From Actinoalloteichus caeruleus DSM 43889 (GTDB taxonomy: Bacteria > Actinomycetota > Actinomycetes > Mycobacteriales > Pseudonocardiaceae), in the NCBI RefSeq assembly GCF_000429185.2, contig NZ_AUBJ02000001.1, positions 434,001-498,000 of the forward strand: 64,000 nt of DNA, given 5' to 3'. Shown in pieces: positions 29,594 through 49,327 of this stretch. Positions within the stretch are counted from its first letter, which is position 1, and each line of letters begins with the position of its first letter. The notes under the pieces were generated by a model. It did no database searches. It worked only from the letters and a program-made list of their open reading frames with translations, and was not told the DNA's origin. The position numbers and the translations under genes were made by a program.

Positions 29594-29661
29594 CGGTGGG
29601 CTCCTGGTCGGCGGACGCGGGCTGGGCGGGCCGTCCCCGAGGGACGCGGGGTCGGGCCGGG

Positions 29662-30966
29662 TCAACGCGACACGAGGGCGCGGGTGATCTCACCGCTGCG
29701 GACCGCGAGGTTGGACAACAGAGTCGAGGAGAGACCGTGGCTGTGTTCGGTACCGCCCTGGAGGTAGATGCCGGCCCGCACCGTCTCGGTGGTGGTGATC
29801 CGGTAGTCCCGCTCCACCCTCGGCCAGCCGTTCGCGTCCAGTTTGCACAGCGCGGCGAGCTCCCCGAGTGGACGCAGTGCGTCCCGGGGGCGGTAGCCGG
29901 TGGCGAGGACGACGACGTCGCACCTGCGGTTGGTGACCCGGCCGTCGGCCAGGGACCGCACCGCCACCGACACCTCGTCGTCCCCCTCCTCGGTCGCCAC
30001 GACCCGCGACAGCCGTTCGAACAACAGCCGGGGCTCTCCGGCGACCCGTTCCTGGTAGGACCGCCGGTACAGCTCGTTGATCAGGCCCCCGTCCACCGCC
30101 GAGTAGTTGGTGCCGGCGTGGGTCCTCAGGAGGTTCTCCCGGGCGGGGAGCGCGGCTTCGAAGAACTCGTCCACACCGGCCGGGTCGAACAGCTGGTTCA
30201 CGAACGGACTGTCGTCGGCCGGGGCGAAACCGTAGCGGGAACACACCGACCGCACCGTCGCCGTGGGGAAGGCATCGTGCAGGTGCGCCATCACCTCGGC
30301 GGCGCTCTGCCCTGCCCCCACCACCACGAAGCGGGGCCTGCTGGGAAGCAGTTCCCGGACCCCGTCCAGCCGGTGCAGCAGTTCGGAGCTGTGCCAGACC
30401 CGGTCGGACGGGGTGATGCCCTGGGGGAGCACCGGTTCGAGGCCGGGGGCGAGCACCACGTTGCGGGTCCGCACCCTCCGCGTCGCGCCAACGCCGCCGT
30501 GGGCGGCCACCACGTCGAAGGCGACCACGTCCGGCCCCTCGTTCACGGGGAGCACGTCCACCACCTCGTGGCCGTAGTGGACGGAGCCGGTGAAACGACC
30601 GGCCACCCATTCCAGGTAGTCGTGGTACTCCCGTCGGGACGGGAAGAAACTCTGGTGGTTGACGAAGTCGACGAGACGGTTCCTGTCGTGCAGGTAGGAA
30701 ACGAAACCGAAGGAGCTCCGGGGATTGCGCAGGGTTACCAGGTCCTTGAGGAAGGACACCTGGAGCGTGGTGTCCGGCAACAGCATTCCCCGGTGCCAAC
30801 CGAAAACAGGTTGACGTTCCAGGAATTGGGCTCGCAACCGCGTTTTCGGTGGTGCGGTCTCGTTGTGTTCGGCGATCGCCACGGCCAGGGCGAGGTTCGA
30901 GGGTCCGAAGCCCACTCCGACCACGTCACTGACCTGGTTCCCGTCGACCGGGACCGAGCCGTACAT
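29662..30966 (-). CDS. L-ornithine N5-monooxygenase (KtzI/SidA type)
   Basis: 434 residues of the flavin N-hydroxylating monooxygenase family. The FAD motif is G-V-G-F-G-P-S-N-L-A at residues 17-26, the NADPH motif V-G-A-G-Q-S-A-A-E at about 216-224, and the C-terminal A-T-G-Y-R-P closes the FAD site. The enzyme hydroxylates the side-chain amine of ornithine (or lysine) with NADPH and O2. GGAGGG lies seven bases before ATG 30966. No hydroxyornithine acylase or siderophore transporter is near, and a KtzT-like gene follows it, so N5-hydroxyornithine is probably used for piperazate rather than hydroxamate. The palindrome at 31081-31096 lies about 115 bases upstream. Confidence 0.9.
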   Translation of the reverse strand: MYGSVPVDGNQVSDVVGVGFGPSNLALAVAIAEHNETAPPKTRLRAQFLERQPVFGWHRGMLLPDTTLQVSFLKDLVTLRNPRSSFGFVSYLHDRNRLVDFVNHQSFFPSRREYHDYLEWVAGRFTGSVHYGHEVVDVLPVNEGPDVVAFDVVAAHGGVGATRRVRTRNVVLAPGLEPVLPQGITPSDRVWHSSELLHRLDGVRELLPSRPRFVVVGAGQSAAEVMAHLHDAFPTATVRSVCSRYGFAPADDSPFVNQLFDPAGVDEFFEAALPARENLLRTHAGTNYSAVDGGLINELYRRSYQERVAGEPRLLFERLSRVVATEEGDDEVSVAVRSLADGRVTNRRCDVVVLATGYRPRDALRPLGELAALCKLDANGWPRVERDYRITTTETVRAGIYLQGGTEHSHGLSSTLLSNLAVRSGEITRALVSR

Positions 30967-31328
30967 CGTGATTCCCTCCGTTGCTCGTCCGGTGGGTGCG
31001 AAGTCGTCGCACGGTGTGCGGGGGCAGGGGTTCCCAATTCCCCGATCCGTTCCACCGCTGGGGCGGGACCGTTTTCCGTCGTCCCGCCGGCGGGACGGGA
31101 CGAGTGGTCCCGGGTCGGTTCAACGTCGAATCCAGTATCGGCGGTGAATTGGTCCCTCGGCCACGGGCGGGACCGACGATTCGCTGTGCCGGGCCCGGGT
31201 ACGGTCGCACGGGCCGGGTGCGGACGCGTCCAGTGGCCCTCCGCCTCGCCGGCCCCACCCGGCGTCTCTGCTCGGGATGCGGACCGTGGCGGTAGGCCGG
31301 TCCTCGCGGGAGGGGGAGCCGGGCTGGC
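30967..31328 (-). promoter_or_regulatory. Promoter region of the monooxygenase operon
   Basis: 362 bases between the NRPS stop and the monooxygenase start, both on the minus strand. It contains palindrome copy 1. A gap this long inside a same-strand gene row suggests that the monooxygenase-synthase-TEII genes have their own promoter here. Confidence 0.5.
31081..31096. promoter_or_regulatory. Cluster palindrome, copy 1
   Basis: A perfect 16-bp palindrome, GTCCCGCCGGCGGGAC, identical to the copies at 37792 and 49080. The match to copy 3 extends to GTCGTCCCGCCGGCGGGAC followed by rGGACG. It lies about 115 bases upstream of the monooxygenase ATG. The core CGCCGGCG is the type reported, as I recall, for LmbU. 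It is probably an operator for the cluster regulator. Confidence 0.75.
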
Positions 31329-34300
31329 TCAGGCGGCACGGTCGTCGTCACCGCCCGTCACGCGGAGCAGGGCCGCGAGACCGGCGGCGGTGGTCGTCCC
31401 GAACAACGAGCGCAGTGGAACCGTCACGCCGACCAGGTCGGCCAACCTCGCGGCGACCTGGGGAACGAGCAGCGAGTGACCGCCGACGGCGAAGAAGTCG
31501 TCCTCGCCGTCCAGGTCGTCTCGACCGAGGACCTCGCGCCACGCGGCGAGCACGGCGGAGAGCCATCGGTCGGACTCGGCCGAGGTACGGGTCCGACCGC
31601 CGTGCCGAGGCCGGGGATCCGGGAGCCGCCGCCTCTCCAGCTTCCCGCTCGACGTCGTCGGCAACGCCTCGACCAACTCGAAGTACGAGGGAACGAGGGG
31701 GCGGGGCAGTCGTTCCCGCAACAGCGCCACCAGGTCGTGCTCGGCAGGAGGGCGGTCGGCGACGATCCAGGCGACCAGCACCGGTCCCGTCGACGAGCCC
31801 AGTTCCCGCAGCCCGACGGCCGCCGCCCGCACGTCGGGGTGCCGCACCAGCTGCGCCTCGACCTCCCCTGGTTCGACCCGCCAGCCCCGCACCTTGAGCT
31901 GGTCGTCCCGCCGGCCCGCGAGGGTCACCGACCCGTCGGCTCGGCGCACCCCCAGGTCCCCCGTCCGGTACAGCCGTGACCCGGGGGGCCCGAACGGGGC
32001 GGGCAGGAACCGCGCCGCCGTCAACCCGGGGGAGCCCCGGTAGCCCCTGGCCAACCCGGCTCCCGAGACGAAGATTTCCCCGACACAGCCTTCTGGCACT
32101 GGTCGCAGTCGCTCGTCGAGCACGTGGACCCCGGTGTGCCAGATCGGGACACCCCCCGAGGTGGGCCCAGCGGGCACCACCTGGGCGGCCACGCTGTCGC
32201 CGCTGGCCTCCGACATGCCGTAGAGATCCAGCAGCCGGGCCCGGGGCAAGACCTCGGTGAACCTCCTCACGAGCTCGGGACGCAGCGGTTCACCGCTGCT
32301 GATCCACAGCTCGCAACAGGACAGCCCGCCCCTGGCGGGGTGTTCCAGCAGCGCGGACAGCAGGCTGGGTACCACGGTGATCCGCCGGACGGAGTGCCGC
32401 CGCACCAGGTCGATCAGGGCCGTGACGTCCTCGGCCTCGTCATCGGTGGCCAGCACCACCCGCCCACCGTGCGCGAGTGGTCCGAGCAGTTCCGTCAGCC
32501 CGTCGGCGAACCCGATGGAACTCTTCGCGCACACGGGAACGTCCTGGCTCCACGGGTGCGCGGAGTGGAACCACGCCAACCGGTTGGTGAGCCCGCCGTG
32601 CGGACCCACCACCGCCTTGGGGCGGCCGGTCGACCCCGAGGTGTGCAGCAGGTAGGCCGCCGACTCCCGGCTGAGATGAGCCGGCGGGAGGCCGTCCTCG
32701 TCGGAGGCGGCGGGCACTCCCTCCGCCACGGCGCCGTCGACGACGATGGTGGTGGCCCCGGGAGCGCCCGGGACCGGCCAGCGGGGGTCCGAGGAGGTGA
32801 GGACCACGTCGGGTTCGATGTCGGACAGCAGCAGGGCGAGCCGCTCCTCGGGGGCGCGCAGGTCCAGTGGCATGGCGACCCCGCCGGCGCGGAACACCGC
32901 CAGCAGCGCGGCGACCATGTCGGGAGAACGGGGCAACGCGACCGCCACCACACGCTCGTCGGCGATGCCGGCGCCGCGCAGCATCCGGGTCAGGACGCGG
33001 ACGAGGTCCTCCAACTCGGCGTAGGTGGTGGTGGTACCGCCGCACACCAGGGCGACCTCATCCGGCCGCAGCCGGGCCTGGTCGGCGACGAGGTCGGGCA
33101 GCGGACGCCAGGGCCCCTCGACGGGCGTCGCCGCGCGCCACTCGCGTCGCACGTCGTCGGGGCCGACGAGGAGGTCGGCGAGCGGCCGTTCCGGTTCGGT
33201 GGCGGCCGCGCGGAGCAGGTGGAGGAAGTCCTCGGCGATGCCGACGACGGTGGACTCGTCGAACAACGCGGCCGAGTAACCGAAACCGCAGCTGAGCCGC
33301 CCGTTGGACTTGACGATGCTCAGCGACAGGTCGAACTTCGACGGTGGCGCCACGCCGGCGAACCCGTCGATATCCAGTCCCGGGATGATTCCGGTCGTGT
33401 CGTCCTCGTGCTGGAGCTGGAACATCACCTGGAACACCGGGTGGTGCGTCAGGTCGCCGCCGGTGGCGAGCTCCTCCACCAGGCGTTCGAAGGGCAGGTC
33501 CTGGTGGGACTGCCCGTCGACGGCGACCTTGCGCACCCGGGCGAGCGCCTCGAGGAAACTTCCAGCCCTCGAGGAGGTCCAGCGCAGGGGTACCGGGTTG
33601 ATGAACAACCCGACGAGGTCCGTCAACCGGGGGTCGGGGCGCCGGTCGAAGGGCACACCGACCACGATGTCCTCCCGGCGGTCCGCCGACCGCTGGGACA
33701 GGACCGCTCCGAAGGCGGTGAGGGTCGTCATGAACAGCGTGGCGTGCGCCCGCCTGCCCAGCTCCTCCAACGCCGATGTCAGCTCGGCGTTCACGACCAG
33801 TTCGAACTCGCCGTCCGAGCCCTCCCGCAGGTCGTGGTCGGGGTGGCGGGGGCGGTCGCTGACCAGTTCGAGCACCGGCGGCGCATCTCGCAGGTGCTCC
33901 CGCCAGTACCTCAGGTGCTCGGCCATCGCTGGGGAGGCCGTGGACCGCCGTTGCCAGACGGCGAAGTCCCCGTACTGCACCGGTACCGGTGCTGGTTCCT
34001 CCGTCCCGGGGGCGGCCTGGTAGTACTCGGCCAGCTCCCGGCGCAGCACGCCCAGCGAGGTCCCGTCGGAGATGATGTGGTGCAGAACGACGCACAGGAC
34101 ATGGTCCCGTTCGCCCAACCGGACCAGCGTGTGGCGCACGAGCGGTCCCGTCGCCAGGTCGAAGGGGCGGAGTTGTTCGCCGCCGACGATCCGCCGCGCC
34201 GCCTCGACGCGGTCGCCGTCGGCGGTGCTGACGTCCACCACCGGCAGCTGGACTGCCCACGGTGGCAGCACGCGTTGGTGGGGCACCCCGGCCTCGTCGG

Positions 34301-36359
34301 GGAACACCGTGCGCAGCGCCTCGTGGCGGGCCAGGGACGTGGAGAGCGCGGAGCGGAGCCGGTCGAGTTCCAGGGGGCCACGCAGGCGCAGGGACAGCAT
34401 GTTGTTGTACATCGCGCTGTCGGGGAACATCCTGCCGAGGAACCACATGCGCTCCTGCGCGTGGGACAGCGGTGTGGGCTCCCCAGGATCCCTGGGACGC
34501 AGCTCGACCGGAGGGGGCACATCACCGACCGGTGCCTCGCCGACCCGCCGGACCCGGGCCGCCAGCTCCCGGACCGTGGGGAAGTCGAACAGCGCCCGCA
34601 GGGGCAGCTCGACGTCGAGGGCCTGCCGCAGGCGGTGCACGACCTGCGCCAACAGCAACGAGTGCCCGCCCAGCGCGAAGAAGTCGTCGCCGGGCGCGAT
34701 CTCGTCCCGACCGAGGACGGCCCGCCACACCTCGATGATGGTGCGTTCGACCTCGTCCGGTGGGGCGGCCTCCGCCGGAACCACCACCTCCTCGGGGGCC
34801 GGCAGCCGGCGCCGGTCGACCTTGCCGTTGGCCGACAACGGCAGCTCGGGCAGGACGACGACGTGGCGGGGCACCATGTGCGCGGGAAGCCGTTCCCGCA
34901 GGTACGCGCGCAGCGTGTCCGGTGTCGCCGCCAGCTCCGGCCCGCCGGCGGCGACCAGGTACAGGGCCAGTGAGGGGTCATCGGTGTCCAGGTCGCGGGC
35001 GACCACCACCGCCTCGTCCACGTCGCCGCGCTCCCGGACGAGCGACTCGATCTCCGCCGGCTCCACGCGGTAGCCGTGCAGTTTGATCTGGAAGTCGGCC
35101 CGACCCAGGAACTCCAGGGTGCCGTCCGCGCGCCACCGCCCCAGGTCGCCCGTGCGGTACATCCGCGCCCCCGGTCGAGGGGAGTACGGGTCGGCGACGA
35201 AGGTGCGGGCCGTCAGGTCGGGGCGGCCGAGGTAGCCGCGGGCCAGCGGTGGACCACCGACGTGGATGACGCCGACCACGCCCACGGGGGCCAGGTTGAG
35301 GTCCCGGTCCAGGACGTAGATCCGCGATCGGGACACCGGGGTGGAGACCGAGGAGACCTCCGGCCCGACCACCACCTCGGCGGACGTCGACCGGGGGCAG
35401 GTGACGACGTTGACCTCGGTCGAGCCGTAGTGGTTGTCCAACACGGCTTCCGGCAACCCGGCGAACAGCTCGCGCACGGCGGGCGTCACCACTTGGCGGT
35501 CCCCGGTCGTGATCACCTCGCGCAGGGAGGCGACCCCCTCCGGCGCGGCGCGGGTGTACCGGGCGAGCTGGTCGAGTGCGACCACCGGGAGCAGGACCCG
35601 TTCGATGCGGTGCCGGTGGATGAGCCCGGCCACCTCTGCGATGTCGAAGCGCTGCTCGTCGTCGGCGACGATCACGTGACCCCCGGTGCTCCAGGTCGCC
35701 CACAGCTCGTAGCAGCCCACGTCGGAGGTGATGGGGAAGTAGTGCAGGACCCGGGAGCCGTGCCGGTACTGGGCGCGACTCCACTCCATCAGGTTGACCT
35801 GCGGCAGGTGTTGCATCGCGATTCCCTTGGGCCGCCCGGTGGAGCCCGACGTGTAGATCACGTACAGCAGCGAGTCCGGACCGGCGCCGCGGACCACCGG
35901 AGTTCCGGGCGCCGTCGACAGTGCCTCCAGGTCGAGTGGTGCGGTCGGCGCGTCCGTCGACGACCGCACCAGCCGTTCCGTCTCCGGCTGGTGCAACACC
36001 AGGTCCGGTCGTGCGTCGGTGAGGACGAACCGGAGGCGGTCGGCGGGGTGGTCGGGGTCGAGGGGCAGGTATCCGGCGCCCGCCTTGGCCACTCCCAACA
36101 CCGCGACCGCCATCTCCACGCCGCGACGGGTGCAGACCCCGACGAGCCGTTCCGGCCCGACGCCCTGGTCCCGCAGCGTGTGCGCGAGGCGGGTGGCCAG
36201 CGTGTCCAGCTCCCGGTAACTGAGGACCCTGCCGCGCGCCTCCAGGGCCGGGGCGTCCGGAGTGGCGGCGACGTGGTGGTCGTACCAGTCCAGCACGGTG
36301 CGGGTGCTCGCGGCGGTGCCGGGGGTGGAGGGAGGGGGCTGCTTCGTCGCGTGGACCAT
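31329..36359 (-). CDS. NRPS, domain order A-T-C-A-T
   Basis: 1676 residues from ATG 36359 (AGGA just upstream; the open frame continues upstream without homology). A1 is about 25-520 (T-S-G-S-T-G-R-P-K-G at 170-179), T1 about 535-605 (L-G-G-H-S-L-L), C about 625-1060 with H760-H761-x3-D765-G766, A2 about 1090-1570 and T2 about 1600-1676 (V-G-G-H-S-L-L). Lacking an N-terminal C domain, it is a loading-type initiator. By hand alignment, the A1 pocket reads D-V-Y-L-I-T-H-V-V-K, close to proline D-V-Q-L-I-A-H-V-V-K. A2 reads A-D-T-T-I-S-L-G-D-K, close to beta-alanine-type codes. There is no epimerase or thioesterase domain. A P450 gene ends eleven bases upstream, so the two are probably co-transcribed. 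Confidence 0.93.
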   Translation of the reverse strand: MVHATKQPPPSTPGTAASTRTVLDWYDHHVAATPDAPALEARGRVLSYRELDTLATRLAHTLRDQGVGPERLVGVCTRRGVEMAVAVLGVAKAGAGYLPLDPDHPADRLRFVLTDARPDLVLHQPETERLVRSSTDAPTAPLDLEALSTAPGTPVVRGAGPDSLLYVIYTSGSTGRPKGIAMQHLPQVNLMEWSRAQYRHGSRVLHYFPITSDVGCYELWATWSTGGHVIVADDEQRFDIAEVAGLIHRHRIERVLLPVVALDQLARYTRAAPEGVASLREVITTGDRQVVTPAVRELFAGLPEAVLDNHYGSTEVNVVTCPRSTSAEVVVGPEVSSVSTPVSRSRIYVLDRDLNLAPVGVVGVIHVGGPPLARGYLGRPDLTARTFVADPYSPRPGARMYRTGDLGRWRADGTLEFLGRADFQIKLHGYRVEPAEIESLVRERGDVDEAVVVARDLDTDDPSLALYLVAAGGPELAATPDTLRAYLRERLPAHMVPRHVVVLPELPLSANGKVDRRRLPAPEEVVVPAEAAPPDEVERTIIEVWRAVLGRDEIAPGDDFFALGGHSLLLAQVVHRLRQALDVELPLRALFDFPTVRELAARVRRVGEAPVGDVPPPVELRPRDPGEPTPLSHAQERMWFLGRMFPDSAMYNNMLSLRLRGPLELDRLRSALSTSLARHEALRTVFPDEAGVPHQRVLPPWAVQLPVVDVSTADGDRVEAARRIVGGEQLRPFDLATGPLVRHTLVRLGERDHVLCVVLHHIISDGTSLGVLRRELAEYYQAAPGTEEPAPVPVQYGDFAVWQRRSTASPAMAEHLRYWREHLRDAPPVLELVSDRPRHPDHDLREGSDGEFELVVNAELTSALEELGRRAHATLFMTTLTAFGAVLSQRSADRREDIVVGVPFDRRPDPRLTDLVGLFINPVPLRWTSSRAGSFLEALARVRKVAVDGQSHQDLPFERLVEELATGGDLTHHPVFQVMFQLQHEDDTTGIIPGLDIDGFAGVAPPSKFDLSLSIVKSNGRLSCGFGYSAALFDESTVVGIAEDFLHLLRAAATEPERPLADLLVGPDDVRREWRAATPVEGPWRPLPDLVADQARLRPDEVALVCGGTTTTYAELEDLVRVLTRMLRGAGIADERVVAVALPRSPDMVAALLAVFRAGGVAMPLDLRAPEERLALLLSDIEPDVVLTSSDPRWPVPGAPGATTIVVDGAVAEGVPAASDEDGLPPAHLSRESAAYLLHTSGSTGRPKAVVGPHGGLTNRLAWFHSAHPWSQDVPVCAKSSIGFADGLTELLGPLAHGGRVVLATDDEAEDVTALIDLVRRHSVRRITVVPSLLSALLEHPARGGLSCCELWISSGEPLRPELVRRFTEVLPRARLLDLYGMSEASGDSVAAQVVPAGPTSGGVPIWHTGVHVLDERLRPVPEGCVGEIFVSGAGLARGYRGSPGLTAARFLPAPFGPPGSRLYRTGDLGVRRADGSVTLAGRRDDQLKVRGWRVEPGEVEAQLVRHPDVRAAAVGLRELGSSTGPVLVAWIVADRPPAEHDLVALLRERLPRPLVPSYFELVEALPTTSSGKLERRRLPDPRPRHGGRTRTSAESDRWLSAVLAAWREVLGRDDLDGEDDFFAVGGHSLLVPQVAARLADLVGVTVPLRSLFGTTTAAGLAALLRVTGGDDDRAA

Positions 36360-36370
36360 GACGTCCTCTC

Positions 36371-37564
36371 TCAGGAGGCGGAGAAGGTGACCGGGAGTTC
36401 GCGGGGGCCGCGCAGCATGGGACCGAGGGTCCAGGCGATGTCTTCGGGCGGCACCGCCAACGTGAGGTACGGCAGGCGCCGGAACAGCACCCGCAGCGCG
36501 GTTTCCGCCTCCAACCGGGCCAGTTGGGCCCCGATGCAGCTGTGGACACCGTGCCCGAAACCCAGGTGCCCGCCGTCCGACCGGTCGGGCAGGAACGCGT
36601 CCGGCTCGCCGAACCTCGCCGGGTCCCTGTTGGCGCCCGCGAAGGAGATCACCACCCGGTCGCCAGGCTCGATGACCGCCCCACCCACTTCGAGGCGTTC
36701 GACCGCGTAGCGGTGCACCGAGGACTGGATGGGGGAGTCGATCCGCAGGGTTTCGTCGACCACCGCCCGCAGCGCCCGGGAGTCGGCGAGGACAGCCGGT
36801 TCCCGGTACTCGGGCCGGGTCAACAACCGCAGGACCGCCGAACCCAGCAGGGGGACGGTCGTGGTGTGGCCGGCGCCCAGCAGCACGTACACGAGGCCGT
36901 GCAGTTCCTCCTCGGAACGCAGCCGCCCCTCGTCGAGCTGGTCCAGCAGGTGGCTGAGCAGGTCCGCGCCCCGGTGGTGCCGCTTGTACCCGATGAGCGC
37001 GGCCACGTAGTCGGCGGTCTGCTTCACCGCGTCCGGGTCGTCCGCGCCGTTCAGGTCGCTGCGCATGAACAGGTCCATGACGACCTCCGGGGGGCGCCGT
37101 TCCCTTGGAGGGATCCCGAGCACCTCGTGGATCACCGCCACCGGCACCGGCAACGTGTAGCCGGGCACCAGGTCCGTCTCCCCGGCCCGCTCCATCGCGT
37201 CGACGGCCCGCGAACAGATCCGTTCGATGGCTGGCTGGTGCGCGGCCAGCGCCCGGGGCGTGAACGCGGAGGCCAGGGACCGCCGGAGCCGGGTGTGGTC
37301 CGGGGCGTCGATCCCCAACAGGTTCCCCGCCACCGGAGTGCCATCCTCCGGTGGCGCGGGGTCGGTGTTGCTCAGGCGCTCGTCGGTGAGCAGCGCCCTG
37401 CCCACCTCGTAGGAGGTGACGAACCACAGCGGGGCGGTTCCCCCCGAGGCGGGCACACTGCTGACCGGCATCTCCCGCCGCAGCCAGGCCAGGTTCGGGT
37501 AGGGGTCTGGATCGCCGGGGGCGGTGCTGCTCTCCCGCTCCCCGGAACCGTTGATCGCAGCCAT
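36371..37564 (-). CDS. Cytochrome P450
   Basis: 397 residues. The heme-binding motif F-G-H-G-V-H-S-C-I-G has its Cys ligand at 343, and the ExxR is E271-T-L-R274. The I-helix motif is A231-G-H-T-T-T236: the Asp/Glu normally before the conserved Thr, which helps proton delivery, is replaced by Thr. It is an actinobacterial CYP107/CYP105-like biosynthetic P450, needing ferredoxin partners encoded elsewhere. It starts the NRPS operon on this strand and is divergent from the second NRPS. A tailoring role, perhaps on a carrier-bound residue, is inferred. Confidence 0.92.
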   Translation of the reverse strand: MAAINGSGERESSTAPGDPDPYPNLAWLRREMPVSSVPASGGTAPLWFVTSYEVGRALLTDERLSNTDPAPPEDGTPVAGNLLGIDAPDHTRLRRSLASAFTPRALAAHQPAIERICSRAVDAMERAGETDLVPGYTLPVPVAVIHEVLGIPPRERRPPEVVMDLFMRSDLNGADDPDAVKQTADYVAALIGYKRHHRGADLLSHLLDQLDEGRLRSEEELHGLVYVLLGAGHTTTVPLLGSAVLRLLTRPEYREPAVLADSRALRAVVDETLRIDSPIQSSVHRYAVERLEVGGAVIEPGDRVVISFAGANRDPARFGEPDAFLPDRSDGGHLGFGHGVHSCIGAQLARLEAETALRVLFRRLPYLTLAVPPEDIAWTLGPMLRGPRELPVTFSAS

Positions 37565-37947
37565 CAGCTCGTCCTGTTCGCTCGTGCTGTCGTCGGGCCC
37601 GCGCGGGTGTCCGAACCGTTCCGGGAAACCGTCCGCGTGAATGCGCGAACCGGTCCGGCGGAAAACGCTACGGCTCCCGGAACGCCGCTCCCAATATCGC
37701 GGCGAAGGGAATTCGTATCCGGGTCGCGAACGGCGGACGGCGGGCGATGGTCGGTGTCACGCCGACGACGGTCCTGGTGGAAGCCTTGCCCGTCCCGCCG
37801 GCGGGACACCGCCGGGCCCGCCCGCCGGTGGTCAGGGGCACGGGAAAACGTGCCGTTCCCGCACTGTCGGCGCCGCTGAATTGCTGGGTAGCATCGGCCG
37901 CTGTCGATCCGCGAATAGCGCGGTCCCCGTGCCGTGGGGAGGTTCCG
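37565..37947. promoter_or_regulatory. Bidirectional promoter region of the NRPS cluster
   Basis: 383 bases between the divergent P450/NRPS and C-A-T NRPS units, containing palindrome copy 2. The GGGGAGG at 37936-37942 serves the TTG at 37948. GC is below the coding average around 37840-37920. Confidence 0.6.
37792..37807. promoter_or_regulatory. Cluster palindrome, copy 2
   Basis: A second exact copy of GTCCCGCCGGCGGGAC, 228 bases upstream of the P450 start and 140 bases upstream of the divergent NRPS start. Placement between divergent biosynthetic operons is typical of an operator controlling both. Confidence 0.75.
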
Positions 37948-40900
37948 TTGGGCGAACACGCGTCGCGGGAGATTCGCGGTGCGCCGCCGGTCGGCACACC
38001 GCAGTCCCGTTCCCCGTCGGCGGTGCGCCGACCGATGTCGGTGGTGCAGCAGGGAGTGTGGCGCGCGCACCAACTCGAACCCGACGACCCTCGGTACACG
38101 GTGGCGGCGACGCTCACCGTGCGCGGCGGCCCCGACCCCGAGCTGTTCGCGGAGGCGCTGCGGGTCGTGTTCCGTGCGGCCGACTCGCTCCACGTGCGCG
38201 TCGAGGAGGACGGCGACGGCCCCTGGCTGGTTCCCGTCGACCCCGCCCGGTGGTCCCCGGACGTCGTCGACCTCTCCGACGAGACCGACCCCGCCGAGGC
38301 GACCCGGTCCTTCGTCGCCGCCGATCTCGCCCGGCCATTCGACCCCGAGACCGGTCCCCCGTTCGCCGAGACCCTGGTCGTGGCGGGCACTGGCACCGTC
38401 ACCTGGTACCACCGAGCGCACCACCTGGTGCTCGACGCCACCGGTTTCGAACTGCTGCGGGAGGGCACCGAGGCCGTGTACGACGCGCTGCTCACCGGCC
38501 GCCCCCTCCCGCCGACCGCCTTCCCCGACGCGGCACGGCTGTCCGAAGCCGACATCCGATACCGCCGCTCGCGGGACCACGACCGGGACAGGCGGTACTG
38601 GACGAGCCGGTTCGCCGATCGCCCCCGTGCCGTCGGCGTCACCGCCGGTGCGGGTCGGGCGGCGGGGCGACCCCCGCGCGCCAGCACGGCGCTCCCCCCG
38701 AGCTGGAGGAACGCAGCTGGCTCCGACCTCCGGGCCGGGCCAGCCCTGTTCGTCGCGGCGACCGCCGCCTACCTGCACCGGCTCACGGGAGCGGAGGACG
38801 TGGTCCTGCGCCTGCCGATGACGGGCCGGCTGGACCCGGCCACCGCCGCGGTCCCGGGTATGGCCGCCACCGTCGTCCCGCTCCGGCTGACCGTCGGCCC
38901 GGACACGTCCTTCCGCGAACTGGAGAGCACCGCGGCCAACGAGATCCTCCGCGCGACCAGGCACCAGCGTTACGGATTGGAGGAACTGCGACGGGAACTG
39001 GGGGTCGTCCACTCGGGACGGCTCCAGGGCGGAGCGATGCTCAACATCCTGCCGTTCAACCCCGCCCCCTCCTTCGGGCCCCACCCCGCCGAGCTGGAGG
39101 CACTGGCCAACGGTCCCGTCGAGGACCTCACGATCTCGGTGCGGCCCACCGCGGACGGTGGGTTCACCCTCGACGTGGACCTCCCGCCCATCGGGTTCAC
39201 CGACGAGGACGTGGCAGCCCACCGCACCCGCCTCGTGGGGCTGCTCGCCCAGCTGACCACCCACCCCGACCTGCCGTTGGCCGAGGCGGACCGACCGCCC
39301 CCGGACCTTCCGGACCCGCTCGCGGAGACGCCCCTCCCCGCAGGCGGGCCGTCCACCGTCCTGTCGGTGTTCGCGGCGACCGCCCGCCGGCTGCCCGGGC
39401 AGATCGCGGTCCGGGACGCGCGCACCAGCCTCACCTACTCCGCGTTGGACACCGCCTCCCGGCGACTGGCCGCGTCGCTCCTCGACCAGCGCCTGGACCC
39501 TGAGGACGTGGTCGCGGTCGTCCTCCCCCGCACGGTCAGCTGGTGCGTGGCGCTGCTCGCGGTACTGCGCGCCGGCGGCACCGCCCTGTCCCTTCCCGCC
39601 GAGGACGACCCCGACCAGCTGCGGGAGGCCATCCAGGAGCTGGGCGCACGACACCTGCTGACCACCGAGGAGCTGCTGCCCGGAGTCGAGCGGACGACGT
39701 CGGTGTTGCGGCTGGCGCACGACGGCGCCCCCACCCCGCCCCACGTCCACACCCGACCGTCGTCGGCGCCGGCACGGCAGGCCGCCCTCGACGCCCCCCG
39801 CATACCCCCTCGACGGGCGGCCTACCTGATCAGGACCTCGGGCTCCACCGGGCGGCCCAAGGGAGTCGTCGTGGAACACCGGTCGCTGGCGGCGCTGGCC
39901 GAGCGCCACCACGTGGCCCTGGGCGCCGGCGAACCCGGGAGGCGGCACCGCGTCGCCCACACCGCGCCGGTGAGCTTCGACGCCGCACTCGACCCGCTGG
40001 TGTTCATGATGGTCGGGCACGAACTCGTCATGGTCGACGACGCCACCCGACGGGATCCCGACCGGCTGGTCGACCTCCTCCGCGGCCGGCGGTGCGACGT
40101 CCTGTCCACCACCCCCTCCTACTTCCGGCAACTGCTGGCCGCCGGGGTGCTCGACGAACCCGACCTGGCCCTGGTCCTGCTCGGCGGGGAAGCGGTCGAC
40201 CAGGCGTTGTGGACCCGGCTGCGCGCCACCCCTGGGGTGCGGGCGTGGAACCTGTACGGCCCCTCCGAGTGCACCGTCGACGCGATGGTGGCCGACACCT
40301 CGGACAGCGCCCTGGTCACTCTGGGGGGCACCGTCCCCGGATCCCACGGGTACGTGCTGGACGGGCGGCTCCGCCGGCTCGGCCCTGGGTCCACCGGTGA
40401 GCTGTACCTCGCCGGTGCCTGCCTGGCGCGCGGGTACCTCGGACGCGCGGGCCTGACCGCCGAGCGGTTCGTGGCGGACCCGTGGGGAGCGCCGGGCGAT
40501 CGGATGTACCGGACGGGAGACCTGGTGTCCTGGACCCCCTCCGGGGTGTTGTCCTTCCTGGGCCGGGCCGACGACCAGGTCAAGATCCGTGGGGCCAGGG
40601 TCGAACTCGGCGCCGTCGAACGAACGTTGCTGCGGCACCCCTCGGTGCGGGAGGCGGCGGCCACCACCCGGCCCGACGCGCAGGGCGACGCCGCGTTGGT
40701 GGCCTTCGTCGTCCTCGAGACCCCCGGCGGATCGTCGTCCGGGGGCACCGGAGAGGCGAGCACGCCGCCCACCGCGGCCGAGTTGCGGACCTGGCTCACC
40801 AGGACGCTCCCCGAACACCACGTCCCGTCCCGCCTCGTCCCGTTGTCGGCCCTGCCCACCACGAGCCGGGGGAAGCTCGACCGGAACGCCCTCGCCGAGA

Positions 40901-41166
40901 TCCCCCTGGAGCAGCAGGAACGCCCGGTCGAGCCCACCAGCGAACTGGAGGCGGTGCTGTGCGGTCTGTTCGCCGATGCCCTGTCCCTACCCGCCGTCGG
41001 AGTGCACGACGACTTCTTCCTGCTCGGAGGGCACTCGCTTCTCGCGAACCGGTTGCTGCGGGGCATCCGACGGCGGCTCGGCGTCCGCTGCACGATGCGG
41101 GCGGTGTTCGACACCCCGACGGTGGCCGGGCTGCTCGGACGTCCCGAGTTCCAGGATGCGAGGTGA
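37948..41166 (+). CDS. NRPS, single module C-A-T
   Basis: 1072 residues. TTG 37948 is chosen because GGGGAGG lies five bases upstream and the condensation domain begins about 30 residues in; no ATG fits. C spans about 30-470, with H158-H159-x3-D163 followed by A-T-G rather than D-G. A is about 480-980 (T-S-G-S-T-G-R-P-K-G) and T about 1000-1072 (L-G-G-H-S-L-L). The pocket residues by hand alignment are D-A-D-S-L-G-L-V-D-K. Acidic residues at both 239 and 331 fit a basic side chain (Lys, Orn, Arg or a cyclic guanidine amino acid). It is the first gene of a plus-strand unit with the ligase-methyltransferase and carrier genes. Confidence 0.92.
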   Translation: MGEHASREIRGAPPVGTPQSRSPSAVRRPMSVVQQGVWRAHQLEPDDPRYTVAATLTVRGGPDPELFAEALRVVFRAADSLHVRVEEDGDGPWLVPVDPARWSPDVVDLSDETDPAEATRSFVAADLARPFDPETGPPFAETLVVAGTGTVTWYHRAHHLVLDATGFELLREGTEAVYDALLTGRPLPPTAFPDAARLSEADIRYRRSRDHDRDRRYWTSRFADRPRAVGVTAGAGRAAGRPPRASTALPPSWRNAAGSDLRAGPALFVAATAAYLHRLTGAEDVVLRLPMTGRLDPATAAVPGMAATVVPLRLTVGPDTSFRELESTAANEILRATRHQRYGLEELRRELGVVHSGRLQGGAMLNILPFNPAPSFGPHPAELEALANGPVEDLTISVRPTADGGFTLDVDLPPIGFTDEDVAAHRTRLVGLLAQLTTHPDLPLAEADRPPPDLPDPLAETPLPAGGPSTVLSVFAATARRLPGQIAVRDARTSLTYSALDTASRRLAASLLDQRLDPEDVVAVVLPRTVSWCVALLAVLRAGGTALSLPAEDDPDQLREAIQELGARHLLTTEELLPGVERTTSVLRLAHDGAPTPPHVHTRPSSAPARQAALDAPRIPPRRAAYLIRTSGSTGRPKGVVVEHRSLAALAERHHVALGAGEPGRRHRVAHTAPVSFDAALDPLVFMMVGHELVMVDDATRRDPDRLVDLLRGRRCDVLSTTPSYFRQLLAAGVLDEPDLALVLLGGEAVDQALWTRLRATPGVRAWNLYGPSECTVDAMVADTSDSALVTLGGTVPGSHGYVLDGRLRRLGPGSTGELYLAGACLARGYLGRAGLTAERFVADPWGAPGDRMYRTGDLVSWTPSGVLSFLGRADDQVKIRGARVELGAVERTLLRHPSVREAAATTRPDAQGDAALVAFVVLETPGGSSSGGTGEASTPPTAAELRTWLTRTLPEHHVPSRLVPLSALPTTSRGKLDRNALAEIPLEQQERPVEPTSELEAVLCGLFADALSLPAVGVHDDFFLLGGHSLLANRLLRGIRRRLGVRCTMRAVFDTPTVAGLLGRPEFQDAR

Positions 41167-41173
41167 CCACGGC

Positions 41174-43618: not shown

Positions 43619-43887
43619 ACCACGACCACGACCACCTCGAGGACTCCCTGCGGGACCTCCTGGTGTCCACCCTGGAACTCGGCGGGGCACGCGACAGCGT
43701 GCCCGGGCGGGGGCTGCTCGACACCCTCGGCCTGGACTCCGTGTCCTGCGTGCGGTTCCTCCTGGCCGTGGAACGCGAGTTCGACATCGAGATCGGTGAC
43801 GACGACCTCACCCCCCAACTGGTCGACGACCTCACCGTCCTGGCCGACTACGTGCGGACCCGGACCTCGCCGTCGAACACCCGGTGA
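43615..43887 (+). CDS. Free-standing acyl/peptidyl carrier protein
   Basis: 90 residues from GTG 43615, translationally coupled to the ligase-methyltransferase gene by a four-base overlap. The phosphopantetheine attachment site is L-G-L-D-S-V near residue 42 (Ser), in an acidic four-helix carrier fold with E-F-D-I-E-I-G-D-D-D after it. It is the likely acceptor of the acid activated by the upstream enzyme, to be passed to a condensation domain. The stand-alone condensation protein encoded at 49.3 kb is a candidate partner. Confidence 0.9.
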   Translation: MNHDHDHLEDSLRDLLVSTLELGGARDSVPGRGLLDTLGLDSVSCVRFLLAVEREFDIEIGDDDLTPQLVDDLTVLADYVRTRTSPSNTR

Positions 43888-43980
43888 CCCGCCCAGCCCG
43901 GGGCGGTAACGACGCCGGCGCTGGCGCACCCGGGGCCGTCCGCGCCCGGTCGGCCTCCCGACCTGGGGGCGCCCACGTCA

Positions 43981-44158
43981 GCGGGGAGTTCGAGCACGGT
44001 GGGGATGCCGGTCAGGCGGGACACCCAGTGCCGCGGAGAACCCTCGATCCGCTCCTCCGTCAACGTCTGGCGTCGCCAGGCGGCGAAGTCCGCGAACCGC
44101 GTCGGCGCGGCGGCAGGTCCGGTGACAGTCCGGCCCGGTGGGCGGTGTGGGCCTCGGC
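43981..44158 (-). pseudogene. Relic of a condensation domain (inverted duplicate)
   Basis: 178 bases that align to 49901-50079 on the opposite strand with, by my count, eight substitutions and one deleted base (about 95% identity). The copy encodes F-A-D-F-A-A-W-R-R-Q-T-L-T-E-E-R then W-V-S-R-L-T-G-I-P-T-V-L-E-L-P-A, the middle of the stand-alone condensation protein. The deletion throws the upstream part out of frame, and homology stops abruptly at both ends. The rest of 43888-44281 is non-coding. It is a fragment left by duplication or rearrangement inside the cluster. Confidence 0.85.
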
Positions 44159-44281
44159 CGACCGAGGCGGCGAGCCCGGTGCCCCAACCCTGCCGTCGCC
44201 CGAGGAGGTGGGCAGGACCGACCGGTGGCGCACCTGGCCACGGTGGGTCCTCGACGGCCTCCCCGCGCCGGGCGGCCGGCC

Positions 44282-45381
44282 TCACCGATCAGACCGGGAA
44301 ACGGGGGGCGTGCCCGGTGGGTGGTGCGAGAGCCGGGCGAGGTGGTGGGAGGTCGCGTAGGCGATCCACCACTCCGCCGTACCCACCGAGATCGAAGGAT
44401 CGGTCCGGCAGCGGTGGAGGCACCGGTCGCCCCAGGAGAAGCGCGGTCCCGCGAAGTCCTGGTCCTCGACCACCTCCTCGGCGACCTCGCGGAAGTACTG
44501 TTCCATCGCGCCGCTCGGGACCACGAGCCCTTTCCTGCCCGGTATGCGGCGGGCGACGGTCAGCCGGTGTCGGCGCAGGCTGTAGTGCAGGTAGGGGTTC
44601 GGTTGAGCCCGAGGGGACGGCCCGGAAGGGGGTAGCGGCGCGGGGTGGACGGCGCCGTAGTCGCCGTACCCGAGCGGGATGTCCAGTTCGGCGCGGACGT
44701 CCTCCCACAGGTCCACCTCGGCCAGGCGGTCGACCTCGCGTTCCCGTCCGCTCCGCGTCCGCGGTGTCGAACCGGCCACCAGCGTGATCGAGGCCAACGG
44801 GACCTCAGCCGTCACCCACCGCCCCAACGAGACCACCCCTCGGACCCGCCGGGGTTCCACCCGCCCCACGAAACCCTCGTCGAGGACGAGGTGCAGCGAA
44901 CTGGTGGGGAGCCCCAGACCGGCGCCGAGGGTGCGCAACCGTTCGACCAGTCGCGACGGGTCCTGCTGGGAGGCGGAGCGGCAGCGGACCACCACCGGCC
45001 GCGCCTGGTGCTCCAGCAGGTTCCGGATGCGCCGCCGTTCCCGCCGCCGGCCGCCGCCGCCACGACGGGGACGAGGGGCGGGGCGTCGAGCCTGAACAGC
45101 CCGAACGCATCCTCGATCAGCCGTTCGAGTTCGCCGAGCGGGTCGCCCAACCGGGCCAGGTCACTGCCCGGGTCCAGGTGAGCGGGGTCGATCCACAGCG
45201 GACGTCCGTCCCACGCCGCCCGCACGGCCGCGTCGACGAGCTCCGTCCTCAGCTGCGGCCCGTCCCGGCCGAGCTCCACCAGGATGTCGACAGGCCTTCC
45301 CGTCACCGGTGTCTCCTGGAGTGCCCGGAGTTCCCCCAGCCTGCACTTCGCCACGAGCAGCGCGCCCGCCTCGGCCGTCAT
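44282..45381 (-). pseudogene. Beta-family protein gene, frameshifted
   Basis: Two overlapping frames make one protein of about 365 residues, the usual size of the T4 beta-protein-like family. The first starts at ATG 45381 (L-L-V-A-K-C-R-L-G-E-L-R-A-L-Q) and holds to P-V-V-A-A-A-A near 45055. The second resumes at R-R-I-R-N-L-L-E-H-Q and runs to 44282 with W-G-D-R-C-L-H-R-C, typical of the family's end. The break lies in a GGC/GCC-rich tract at about 45040-45060, so a sequencing error is possible. The family is of unknown function and is not a normal NRPS cluster member. It sits between the relic and the third NRPS, inside the inverted repeat. Confidence 0.65.
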
Positions 45382-45681
45382 GACGGGAAGGCGGTGCCGA
45401 ACCCGTCCGACGAGGTGGCCGCACCCGAGCACGGTGGAGGATGATCCTGGGAGCGCCGACGCCGTCCAACCATGCCCGCGTCCTCTCCCGGCCCCTCGGG
45501 TGGGGCCGCGATCGTCAGCTCTGGTCCCTGCCCTGACCTCCAGGTTCCCAGGTGGTCGCGTCGACCTCGATCGGCCGAACGGGTGCGGCAGCAGGACGTG
45601 GGCGGGCCTGGCCCGCGGTCGGCCCGCATGGACCCCACACCACCGGCGCGTGGTGGTGCGGAGGGTACCCGGCCGGGTCCG
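45382..45681. other. Intergenic region downstream of the third NRPS
   Basis: 300 bases between the NRPS stop and the beta-family start, both on the minus strand. I see no gene, strong hairpin or palindrome copy here. Confidence 0.4.
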
Positions 45682-48600
45682 TCACGTCCCCGCCTCGGCG
45701 GTGAGTTCCGCCAGGACCCTCGCGCGCACCGCCGCCGCCTGCGACGCCACCGTCCGGTGGTCGAACACGTCGCGGACCGTCAGGTCCACGTCGAAGATCT
45801 CCCCGAGGCGGGCGGCGAGGCGGGCGGCGGCCAACGAGTGCCCGCCGAGGGCGAAGAAGTCGTCGTGCACCCCCGGGGGCGCGGAGGTGAGGACCTCCGC
45901 CCAACACCCCGCGATCAGTTCCTCACCCTCGTCCCGGGGAGGCACGGACTCCACCACCGCGGTGGCGGGTTCGGGCAGGCGGGAGCGGTCCACCTTGCCG
46001 CTGCTCGTCATCGGCATGGTGTCCACGGGCAGGATGACGGTGGGCACCAGGTGTTCGGGCAGCCGGGCGCGGGCGTGCTCCGCGAGCTCCGCCACGGCGA
46101 CGTCCCGCCGAAGTTCGACGTGGGCGACGAGGACGTCACCCCGACCGGAGGCTCCGACGACGGCCATCCGGACAGCGGGGTGCGCCAGCAGCACGGCCTC
46201 CACCTCGCCCGGCTCGATCCGGAACCCCCGCACCTTGACCTGCCGGTCGGTGCGGCCGTGGAACCGGAGTTCCCGACCCCACCAGCTGACCCGGTCTCCC
46301 GTGCGGTACATCCGTCCCCCGCTGGGCCCGAACGGGTCGGCGACGAACCGGGCCGCCGTGCCCGTCGGGTTGGCGACATAGCCCCGGGCCACCCCCGAGC
46401 CGCCCAGGTACAGCTCGCCGGGCGTCCCGTCGGGAACCGGGCGGAGCCACCGGTCGAGCACGTAGCACCGCACACCGGGAACGGGAGCGCCGATGGTCGT
46501 CTCGCCCCAGGGGGCCCGCAGGGCGCCACCGGCGGTGGCGACCACGGTGTTCTCGGTCGGCCCGTAGTGGTTGACGACCTCGATGTCGGCGCCCCTCGCC
46601 TCCCGTGCGTGCAGGACGTCGCCGCCGGTCAGGAGCCGGCGCAGCCCTCCCCGGGTCAGTACCGGGTGGTCGAGCAGGGCCTCCGCCAGCGGGGTGGGCG
46701 CGAACGCCGAGGTGACGCCACGGTCGGCGAGGTACGCGGCGAGCAGGTCGGGTCTGGCGAGCACGTCGTTCGGGGGCACCTCCAAGGCCGCTCCGGCGAC
46801 GAGCGCGGGCCAGATCTCCCAGGCAGCGGCGTCGAAGGACACGCGGGCGAGTTGCGCGGTGCGCTCCCCTGGCCGGGGGCGGTACCGGTGCAGGTGCCAC
46901 CGCACGAGACCGCCGAGGGTGCGGTGGGAGACCGCCACCCCCTTGGGGTGGCCCGTGGATCCGGAGGTGTAGACGACGTAGGCCAGGCAGTCGGGGTGCC
47001 CCACCTCGGACACGGCTGGCAGGGGAGGGGCGGCGACCTCGGCCGCCTCCCCGTCCGGGTCAACGACGACACCGGCGGCGTCGACCGCCACCACCGGTGT
47101 CGTGGGGAACCGGTCGGCGGTCGCGAGGTCGGTGACCACGCTCGTCGCGCCCGCGTCGGCGAGGACGTGGCGCAGGCGGGCCGACGGTAGTGCGGGGTCC
47201 AGCGGGACGTACGCGCCGCCCGCGCGCAGCACCCCGACGAGGGCGGTGACGAACGCGGCTCCCCGGGGCAGGCACACGGCCACCACCCGCTCCGGTGCGG
47301 TACCGAGGGCGGCGAGCCGTCGCGCCACCCGTTCGGCCCGTGCGGCCAGCAGCCGGTACGTCAGCTCCACACCACCCGCCGACACCGCCACCCGGTCCGG
47401 GTGGCGGGCCGCCGCGCGCGCGACGAGGGCGGTGACCGTGCCCTCAACGGCACCCTCGGGGTCCGGTGCGGAACCCGCGCATCCACGCTCGAGCAGTTCC
47501 CGCCGCTCCGGCTCGTCGAGCAGCGGGATGCGCGACAGCGGGAGGGTCGGGTTGCCCAACGCCGCGACCAACAGCCGCGAGTAGCGTTCGGCGAACCGGC
47601 GTGCCCAAGCCCTGGTGAACACGCCCGTGTCGTGGACGACACCGACCGACAACCCCTGGTCGGTGTACCGCAGGTGCGTCTCCAACTCGAAGTGGGCGGC
47701 GACCACGGGCGGCGGCAGCAGGGTCGTGTCACACCCGGGGAGGCGGAGCCCGCCCCCACCGGTGTCCGACCGTTCGTCGGTGACGTCGAACCAGTGGCGG
47801 AACAACGGGTTGTCCTCCCCGGACCGTTCCAGTCCGAGCCCTGCCACCACCTCGTCGAAGGGGAGTCCCTGGTGGTCGTGGGCGTCGAGCACCCCGTCAC
47901 GCACCCGCGCGGACAACTCCACCAGCGACGGGTCCCCCGCCAAGCTGGTCCGGATCGCCACCGTGTTCACGAAGCACCCGAGGGTGTCCTCGACATCCGG
48001 GTCGAGCCGGCCGTCCGCGGCCGTGCCGACCACCACGTCCTCGACACCCCCCAACCACCCGAGGAGGAACGACTGCACCGCCATGCCCACGGCGAACGGA
48101 GTCACGCGGTGCCGCCGTGCGAACTCCGCCAACGCCGCGTCGAGGGCAGGTGGGAGCGGGAGGACCACCTCGGCCCCCGCCGGTCCGTCCGCCCGGCGGG
48201 ACGCCACGTCCGGGGTGAGGCTGAGCACCGCGGCACCGCTCAGTTCCTCCCGCCAGTACGCGAGGTCCTCCGCGTCGTCCTCGGTGTCGCGGGCGGCGGC
48301 CTCCCGGGCCGCGTGCTCGAGGTACCCGACCCCGGCCGGCGGGAGCTCAGCTCCTCCGCCCCGCGCGGCGGCGTAGCCGGCGGAGAGCTCCGCCTCCAGG
48401 GTCGGCCTCGACCCGCCGTCGAAAACCAGGTGGTGTGCCGCGAACAGCAGCAGGGCGCGTGTGTCCGTCAGCCTGTACAGGACGACCCGGACGAGGGGCC
48501 CCGTGAGCGGGTCGAACGGGGCGGCGACCTCGTCCAGGACCCGGCGCCGGGCCTCACCCCGAGCGTCGCCGGTGCCCCGCAGATCCGCCACCTCCAACCG

Positions 48601-48879
48601 GACCGCCTCGGCCGGCCCGAGCCGTTGACCCGGCCAGCCCCCGTTCATGGTGATCCGGATCCGGAGCACCTCCTGCCGGGACGCCAGCGAGCGCACCGCC
48701 TCGGCCAGCGCCGGGACGTCGAGCTCCCCGGTGATCTCGTACAGCGCGGGCACGGTATAGGCGTCGCCCAGGCCGAGCTGGTGCAGGAACCACAGCCGCC
48801 GTTGCGCCGACGACAACGGGAAGACCGTGCCCTCGGCCGCCGTGTCCGTCGGCCGACAGGTCGTTGTGTCCTCTGTCAC
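45682..48879 (-). CDS. NRPS, single module C-A-T
   Basis: 1065 residues from GTG 48879. C is about 18-450 with intact H149-H150-x3-D154-G155, A about 470-960 ([10 protein letters not shown]) and T about 985-1060 (L-G-G-H-S-L-A). Pocket residues by hand alignment are D-A-W-F-L-G-H-V-V-K, one position from the leucine code D-A-W-F-L-G-N-V-V-K, so a Leu-like aliphatic residue is expected. There is no epimerase or thioesterase domain. It is divergent from the stand-alone condensation gene, with palindrome copy 3 between them. It probably elongates the chain after one of the other NRPSs, but the order cannot be read from gene order. Confidence 0.93.
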
Positions 48880-49327
48880 GGGATACCTCGAGAAGACGTG
48901 GGCCTCACCCGGGAGCGAACACGGGTTCGGCCGGAAAGCGAGGATTCCCGCGGTGCTCGGGTGTGGACGGACGGGGGAAACGTGCTCAGCCTACGAATGT
49001 CCCCCCTGCCCCCGGAACGGCGAGCAACCGCGACTTCCCGCTCAGCCGCGCCCCCGGGGGACTCCGAGAACCGCGAGTCGTCCCGCCGGCGGGACAGGAC
49101 GGAATGGCCATCCTGTCCAGCGACAACGACGTCGGGTCGTCGGACGGACCTCGGCGCGTCCCCGCTGGTCGGCCTGGCGGCCGCTGGCGTGGGGAAAAGG
49201 CTCCTTCCCACCATTTCCAGCATCGGAGAATCCGCCCGGTGCTTCCTATGCTGGCCCGGATGGTGGCTTTCCGGCGCGCGGCGCGGAAGGAACACCGGGA
49301 GCGCGATGGGAATGAGGAGCCTCGGAC
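48880..49327. promoter_or_regulatory. Bidirectional promoter region, third NRPS / condensation gene
   Basis: 448 bases between divergent genes, containing palindrome copy 3. GAGGAG at 49314-49319 is the ribosome-binding site of the condensation gene. The region is expected to hold both promoters. Confidence 0.6.
49080..49095. promoter_or_regulatory. Cluster palindrome, copy 3
   Basis: A third exact copy of GTCCCGCCGGCGGGAC, 201 bases upstream of the NRPS start and 233 bases upstream of the condensation gene. Flanks (GTC before, AGGACG after) match copy 1 closely, extending the conserved element to about 24 bases. Confidence 0.75.

Follow-up and report, generated by a model that had tools for sequence, protein, structure and literature searches.

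Three identical palindromes in a piperazate-type peptide synthetase cluster of Actinoalloteichus caeruleus are predicted operators of an LmbU-family regulator

What reads a palindrome that recurs, letter for letter, between the transcription units of a single biosynthetic cluster? This question is raised by a stretch of 64,000 nucleotides from Actinoalloteichus caeruleus DSM 43889 (contig NZ_AUBJ02000001.1, positions 434,001 to 498,000), referred to here as the window, in which the 16-mer palindrome GTCCCGCCGGCGGGAC stands in three spacers of a nonribosomal peptide synthetase (NRPS) cluster of the piperazate type. In the present study, we analysed these copies, their occurrence in other genomes and the regulator genes near them. 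We conclude that the three palindromes are very probably operators of the LmbU-family regulator encoded in the same window (Table 1).

The preliminary description of the window had counted three exact copies, all intergenic, and had held this recurrence to be far beyond chance. An exact search agreed with the count, and no other 16-mer was found three times in the window, except GTCCCGCCGGCGGGAC shifted by one base. The GC content of the window is 73%, and a second-order Markov model of it predicts 0.001 exact copies per window and 0.09 per genome, which bears out the statement on chance. In addition, all three copies lie in the noncoding share of 28104-50818, which is about 10% according to a gene list compiled in this analysis with some starts inferred. 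In the whole genome (6.04 Mb), the exact search returned the same three copies only, with no scattered exact copies, and three one-mismatch sites were found elsewhere, two of them inside predicted genes. None of these three matches the degenerate 18-bp consensus YGTCYCGCCGGCGRGACR, which all three window copies fit. With up to three mismatches, the window gave 11 matches against a mean of 7.4 in shuffles, and 10 of 100 shuffles reached 11. Only the exact copies stand out, because this count is no higher than shuffles often give. The extended flanks ascribed to copies 1 and 3 held only weakly: GTC before and GGACG after are in register, but TGG is offset by one base, and most of this flanking sequence at site 3 is not conserved in Actinoalloteichus spitiensis.

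The candidate reader is the single match of the genome to the NCBIfam LmbU model (52706-53212, minus strand). Its frame, with a likely ATG at 53311, contains no TTA codon and lies about 1.8 kb beyond the condensation gene, so that it is situated with the biosynthetic cluster. A HutH-type histidine ammonia-lyase gene (50904-52439, plus strand; 94.5% identity in A. spitiensis) stands between the condensation gene and lmbU, and because this housekeeping-like gene intervenes, lmbU is set apart from the NRPS genes. The LmbU protein of Streptomyces lincolnensis binds CGCCGGCG at two genes, lmbA and lmbW, the first of which it activates (PMC6510168). The same CGCCGGCG is the centre of GTCCCGCCGGCGGGAC and is present in all three copies. 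Judged from sequence, the data support the earlier proposal of one operator for all biosynthetic units, since a gene of the LmbU family adjoins the cluster and the published site of this family is the core of the palindrome.

Regulators of the LmbU type have been reported in the lincomycin, novobiocin, himastatin, hormaomycin and actinomycin clusters (PMC7014725, PMC6510168). In the himastatin and lunaemycin clusters, an ornithine/lysine N-oxygenase, a piperazate synthase and an LmbU-family regulator (HmtD and Lun18, respectively) occur together, as they do here (PMC9866976), and HmtD is a positive regulator (PMC6510168). The system of A. caeruleus resembles that of S. lincolnensis in the protein family, in the CGCCGGCG core and in the location of the gene with its cluster, and the S. 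lincolnensis protein is an activator that binds promoters within the lincomycin cluster (PMC6510168). The two differ in that the published site has 8 bp, its 10-bp extension TCGCCGGCGA giving 176 hits in a genome scan (PMC10763038), whereas the site described here has 16-18 bp and three copies in the genome. Within the LmbU literature that we found, only the 8-bp core and the 10-bp extension appear as the site, and the exact 16-mer is absent from the full texts searched, most subscription papers being outside the reach of these searches.

If LmbU reads the palindrome, site and regulator should be found in the same genomes. Among 390 genomes of the organism's family, 64 carry GTCCCGCYGGCGGGAC and 79 carry an LmbU gene above the cut-off; 45 have both, 19 the site only, 34 LmbU only and 292 neither (odds ratio 20, p 1.3e-22). 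The reversed GTCCCGCYGGCGGGAC served as control and showed no link (5, 28, 74 and 283 genomes in the same order, p 0.84). Among the sites listed in these genomes, which number at least 89, 59/89 lie within 50 kb of an LmbU gene and 26/89 within 5 kb. The association was seen again in 372 genomes of Streptomyces with the Y/R-degenerate GTCYCGCCGGCGRGAC (Y, pyrimidine; R, purine), where 53 have both, 27 the site only, 22 LmbU only and 270 neither (odds ratio 24, p 1.3e-26). In this set, 123 of 152 GTCYCGCCGGCGRGAC sites belong to genomes with LmbU, 34 of the 36 genomes with at least two copies have LmbU, and 50/75 of the sites listed (at least 75) have an LmbU gene no more than 60 kb away. A few copies remote from LmbU appear to lie inside genes or longer hairpins.

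The palindrome also emerges from LmbU neighbourhoods without being asked for. We collected 49 windows around LmbU genes (965 kb, the present locus and that of A. spitiensis included), and GTCCCGCCGGCGGGAC was the commonest exact 16-bp palindrome in them, making up 20 of the 91 palindromes (those without N) and occurring in 17 windows. The next most repeated one, TGGAAAGCGCTTTCCA, has 5 copies in 5 windows, and 3 in the named set described below. Allowing one mismatch, the site is present in 29/49 windows, while 12 shuffled palindromes gave no exact and 0-1 one-mismatch occurrences. A named set of 76 further loci was then considered, mostly from other families by genus name and taken from the best 80 of 378 relatives, with 3 duplicates dropped; one family window without an operator (L136) shares DNA with one named locus and was counted in both sets. 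In this set, GTCCCGCCGGCGGGAC again ranked first (32 copies in 27 loci), followed by GTCTCGCCGGCGAGAC with 9 and the next palindrome with 3. The site was found in 49/76 loci with up to one mismatch and in 63/76 with up to two. The motif gave 32 exact and 33 one-mismatch occurrences, against 0 and 0-2, respectively, for 8 shuffled palindromes, and 57 of the 430 CGCCGGCG cores have GTCY before and RGAC after. As a separate observation, the exact 16-mer lies inside the lmbU match itself in two cases, L150 (G157:C2:3273732) and G217:C53:2598, which may be an internal site or a coincidence.

In the second genome of the genus (G001), assigned to A. spitiensis because its contig C836 agrees in every letter with the named contig of L164, copies 2 and 3 are exact and in the same places. 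The absence from orthologous clusters, by which the preliminary description would have abandoned its proposal, was therefore not found: at both positions where A. spitiensis can be compared, the site is intact. Conservation was judged at sites 2 and 3, as the A. spitiensis contig ends at the position of site 1. The spacer alignments, gene edges included, are 78% (site 2) and 69% (site 3) identical, and both palindromes form identical islands within poorly matching stretches, the blocks near the gene starts being conserved too. In a genome of another genus (G007), an exact copy precedes a condensation gene within 35 kb of a less similar NRPS cluster, and GTCCCGCTGGCGGGAC occurs there twice, once ahead of a P450 gene; two of these three copies overlap predicted 3' ends of neighbouring frames, and no match to the oxygenase or the PF04299 protein was seen in these 35 kb. 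A further copy in G007 adjoins its LmbU gene. In the piperazate-type NRPS cluster of G151, the motif was not found in the 39 kb read, its single genomic copy being elsewhere. The condensation protein was tried as an orthologue query and rejected as too unspecific, since 309/390 genomes matched.

The anatomy of the operator was derived from 87 exact GTCYCGCCGGCGRGAC sites in 124 LmbU loci. The preceding base is C or T in 93% of them and farther bases carry little information, so that clear constraint extends to only one more base on each side (Y before, R after). From this we take YGTCYCGCCGGCGRGACR as the full operator. Among 133 sites with exact flanks, centres other than CCGG also occur, CTGG or CCAG in 35 and TCGA in 3. 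A simple gene caller made for this analysis called 83% of the site-bearing loci coding, yet placed 70 of the 87 sites between genes; of these 70, 43 are in spacers with divergent genes, 25 have a single gene downstream and 2 have none. The distance from centre to start codon has a median of 264 nt, and 1 of 111 such distances is under 40 nt. Sites so far upstream fit an activator better than a blocking repressor.

This bears on the alternative that survives best, namely that LmbU binds the palindromes but represses the cluster, or both activates and represses it. A form of LmbU that lacks the N-terminal domain has been reported to bind the lmbU promoter, and LmbU to inhibit its own transcription (PMC6510168). 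Against this stand the upstream position of the sites and the published role of LmbU and HmtD as positive regulators. Furthermore, loss of NovE is reported to cut the novobiocin yield, and extra lmbU together with strR to have raised the yield of a glycopeptide. We consider repression in either form unlikely, and activation by LmbU is the reading that we follow.

How LmbU might recognise such a site was approached by structure prediction. In the AlphaFold2 model of the LmbU protein (predicted local distance difference test, pLDDT, 83.6; predicted template modelling score, pTM, 0.57), residues 54-159 align best with the DNA-binding domains of ParB, Noc and Spo0J (Z 8.8-11.1 in the first 12 rows, all of them such chains), and residues 164-210 are ribbon-helix-helix-like (Z up to 5.9). 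The Foldseek E-values were weak (best 0.07), and a sequence profile search of the PDB gave 3 matches up to E 10, with no ParB among them. The ParB-like fold stays a lead, because Foldseek is weak and helical models often reach such Z values. ParB and Noc also read 16-bp palindromes. The model differs from ParB in that it has no domain before residue 44, ParB carrying its CTPase domain at the place corresponding to the LmbU N-terminal region, and in that the C-terminal part appears ribbon-helix-helix-like. Spo0J was also among the modelling templates of the LmbU authors (PMC6510168).

In the model, the heptad W-x-x-x-x-L-R opens a late helix of the DNA-binding region, and two residue types were distinguished in it, RN (W-S-R-N-x-L-R) and TK (W-T-T-K-Q-L-R). 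The window protein is of the RN type (W-S-R-N-Q-L-R), in agreement with its CCGG centres. Counting CCGG, CTGG and CCAG as CCGG-type centres, windows with RN proteins only have such centres in 101/125 and TCGA-type centres in 6/125, whereas windows with TK proteins only have them in 5/30 and 19/30 (p 7e-11 and 5.5e-12, respectively). This split pools old and new windows and was not pre-specified, and in Streptomyces alone p is 0.003 for each; 17 windows of other types, 7 of them with CCGG-type and none with TCGA-type centres, were excluded from the type tests, as were 2 that could not be read. In 7 Streptomyces windows with both types, TCGA-type centres occur in 6 and CCGG-type in 2. It was also observed that two or three LmbU genes can stand about 5 to 25 kb apart in Streptomyces (G592:C22, G694:C135, G600:C1, G754:C2, G597:C333 and G716:C1). 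The link had a first form, in which SRN was compared with the rest for sites with up to one mismatch, and which gave 29/33 vs 0/15 (p 3.5e-9) in the family set. The centre-specific link was first noticed post hoc in the same family and named sets and then tested on new windows. A per-protein test written beforehand held in new Streptomyces windows (57 kept, of which 52 RN or TK and 5 other or unread, excluded): TCGA-type centres accompany TK in 14/19 and RN in 11/33 (p 0.009), and CCGG-type centres accompany RN in 18/33 and TK in 2/19 (p 0.003). These data give a strong hint that late-helix residues of LmbU covary with the operator centre.

The covariation is also what speaks against another nearby regulator as the reader, with LmbU a bystander. 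Genes of the TetR type (22388 and 59703) and of the MLTR/XRE type (57600) are present in the window, and TetR sites are typically palindromes of about this length. However, the site tracks LmbU genes across the 390 and 372 genomes, its centre varies with LmbU residues, and the centre of the palindrome has the same letters as the published LmbU core, which makes such a reader very unlikely. Still less probable is a role as transcription terminators or RNA hairpins. A perfect, GC-rich inverted repeat could form a hairpin in the transcript, and longer hairpins surround copies in L046 (on a contig other than that of its LmbU gene), in L061 (a genome without LmbU) and in L063-L065 (close to LmbU). 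This explanation was set aside, as no terminator-like site (GC stem followed by a T-run) was found in any of the three spacers and the letters are constrained beyond mere pairing; termination is also unneeded at copies 2 and 3, because both stand between divergent genes. In L063-L065, which come from related genomes (G097, G098 and G103), a T variant of the 16-mer tips a much longer hairpin near lmbU, and a terminator is possible there instead or additionally. That the copies are due to chance or to a mobile repeat without regulatory role, as GC-rich words recur more often at this GC content, was set aside as next to impossible in view of the Markov expectation, the orthologous positions kept in A. 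spitiensis and the little constraint beyond one base per side.

Several results weigh against LmbU as the reader of the palindromes, or lessen what the evidence for it tells. Fully identical 16-column windows make up 20% of the alignment at site 2 and 3% at site 3, so the identity at site 2 is less telling than that at site 3. LmbU occurs without an exact site in 34 family and 22 Streptomyces genomes, and the site without LmbU in 19 and 27, respectively. The reversed GTCYCGCCGGCGRGAC control was weakly positive in Streptomyces (21, 53, 54 and 244 genomes; odds ratio 1.8, p 0.04). At exactly two mismatches, the motif no longer separates clearly from shuffled palindromes, either in the 49 windows (14 vs 1-22) or in the named loci (31 vs 1-24). 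The promoter of the window's own lmbU has no site with up to three mismatches. In S. lincolnensis, the exchanges R101A and R101K abolish binding by LmbU (PMC6510168), and the window protein differs in having Gly at what we infer to be this position; homologs without Arg there keep sites in 14/18 cases vs 123/158 for those with Arg (5 unreadable excluded). Finally, the residue link in its first form did not hold in the named set (42/64 vs 5/9, p 0.71; 3 motif-less loci excluded), and the sequences are not independent, since 27 of the TK type form one clade and the other three are single rows, two of these with TCGA-type sites. Because of this clade structure and this failure, the covariation is a strong hint and not proof.

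The spacers with the palindromes belong to a cluster comprising an N-monooxygenase, a PF04299 protein, a thioesterase, a P450, several NRPS and a stand-alone condensation protein (Table 1). We take the N-monooxygenase to be KtzI/HmtM-like and the PF04299 protein to be piperazate-synthase-like (KtzT/HmtC-like), and together they presumably point to piperazate synthesis. Copy 1 lies about 115 nt upstream of the N-monooxygenase start, ahead of the predicted oxygenase operon, copy 2 between the divergent P450-NRPS1 and NRPS2 units, and copy 3 between the divergent NRPS3 and condensation-domain genes, and these units together contain the main biosynthetic genes. Judging by eye from conserved TAnnnT blocks, the putative transcription starts lie about 100-170 bp downstream of the copy 2 and copy 3 centres, and no -10 box was readable by eye at copy 1. 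A simple sigma-70 scan gave no promoters in the three spacers and is uninformative, as none were expected in shuffles either. Elsewhere in the cluster, a small acyl-carrier-protein-like frame (43619-43887, plus strand) is followed on the opposite strand by a frame resembling, by eye, a condensation-domain remnant (43848-44285, minus strand), of which 43977-44161 matches the A. spitiensis condensation gene (84%); a Beta_protein (PF14350) frame adjoins the remnant (44282-44995). The first two suggest a decayed duplication inside the cluster.

Table 1. Predicted operators, regulator gene, target genes and putative promoter elements (window positions)
Feature	Position	Strand	Basis
Operator copy 1 (predicted)	31081..31096; 18-bp form 31080-31097	strandless	exact match; fits YGTCYCGCCGGCGRGACR
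Operator copy 2 (predicted)	37792..37807; 18-bp form 37791-37808	strandless	exact match; identical island vs A. spitiensis
Operator copy 3 (predicted)	49080..49095; 18-bp form 49079-49096	strandless	exact match; identical island vs A. spitiensis
LmbU-family regulator gene, candidate reader	52637..53356	-	NF038070, 219.9 bits vs cut-off 125
Stand-alone thioesterase, predicted target	28104..28859	-	PF00975
PF04299 protein, predicted target	28862..29665	-	PF04299, 1.5e-37
Lysine/ornithine N-monooxygenase, predicted target	29662..30966	-	PF13434, 3.7e-105
NRPS1 (adenylation (A), peptidyl carrier (PCP), condensation (C), A, PCP), predicted target downstream of P450	31329..36374	-	domains; putative 5' end
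Cytochrome P450, predicted target	36371..37564	-	NCBIfam P450 matches
NRPS2 (C-A-PCP), predicted target	37948..41166	+	domains; putative TTG start with GGGGAGG; start region conserved in A. spitiensis
NRPS3 (C-A-PCP), predicted target	45682..48879	-	domains
Stand-alone condensation-domain protein, predicted target	49328..50818	+	domain match
Putative -10 TAGCGT, P450 promoter	37665..37670	-	by eye, in block conserved vs A. spitiensis
Putative -10 TAGCAT, NRPS2 promoter	37889..37894	+	by eye, in block conserved vs A. spitiensis
Putative -10 TAGGCT, NRPS3 promoter	48989..48994	-	by eye, in block conserved vs A. spitiensis
Putative -10 TATGCT, condensation-gene promoter	49247..49252	+	by eye, in block conserved vs A. 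spitiensis

In the mechanism that we propose, a dimer of LmbU would read the 16-18 bp palindrome through a helical DNA-binding domain, perhaps of the ParB/Noc kind. At copies 2 and 3 it would act from upstream on the four putative promoters, and in this strain it would probably switch on five units, namely the N-monooxygenase/piperazate/thioesterase operon, P450-NRPS1, NRPS2, NRPS3 and the condensation gene.

For the family as a whole, we find it somewhat more credible than its contrary that LmbU proteins are ParB/Noc-like palindrome readers that have become activators of antibiotic clusters, with YGTCYCGCCGGCGRGACR as a family-wide operator and a natural switch of specificity in which the RN type reads CCGG-type and the TK type TCGA-type centres. 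The LmbU family and the core of its site were already known; the full operator and the two-type recognition pattern are apparently new. An operator of 16-18 bp that is rare elsewhere in the genome would allow the likely targets of an LmbU gene to be listed from sequence alone, and it would help to mark the boundaries of clusters and to choose promoters for waking silent ones. In addition, the two-type pattern makes DNA recognition in the LmbU family testable by residue swaps.

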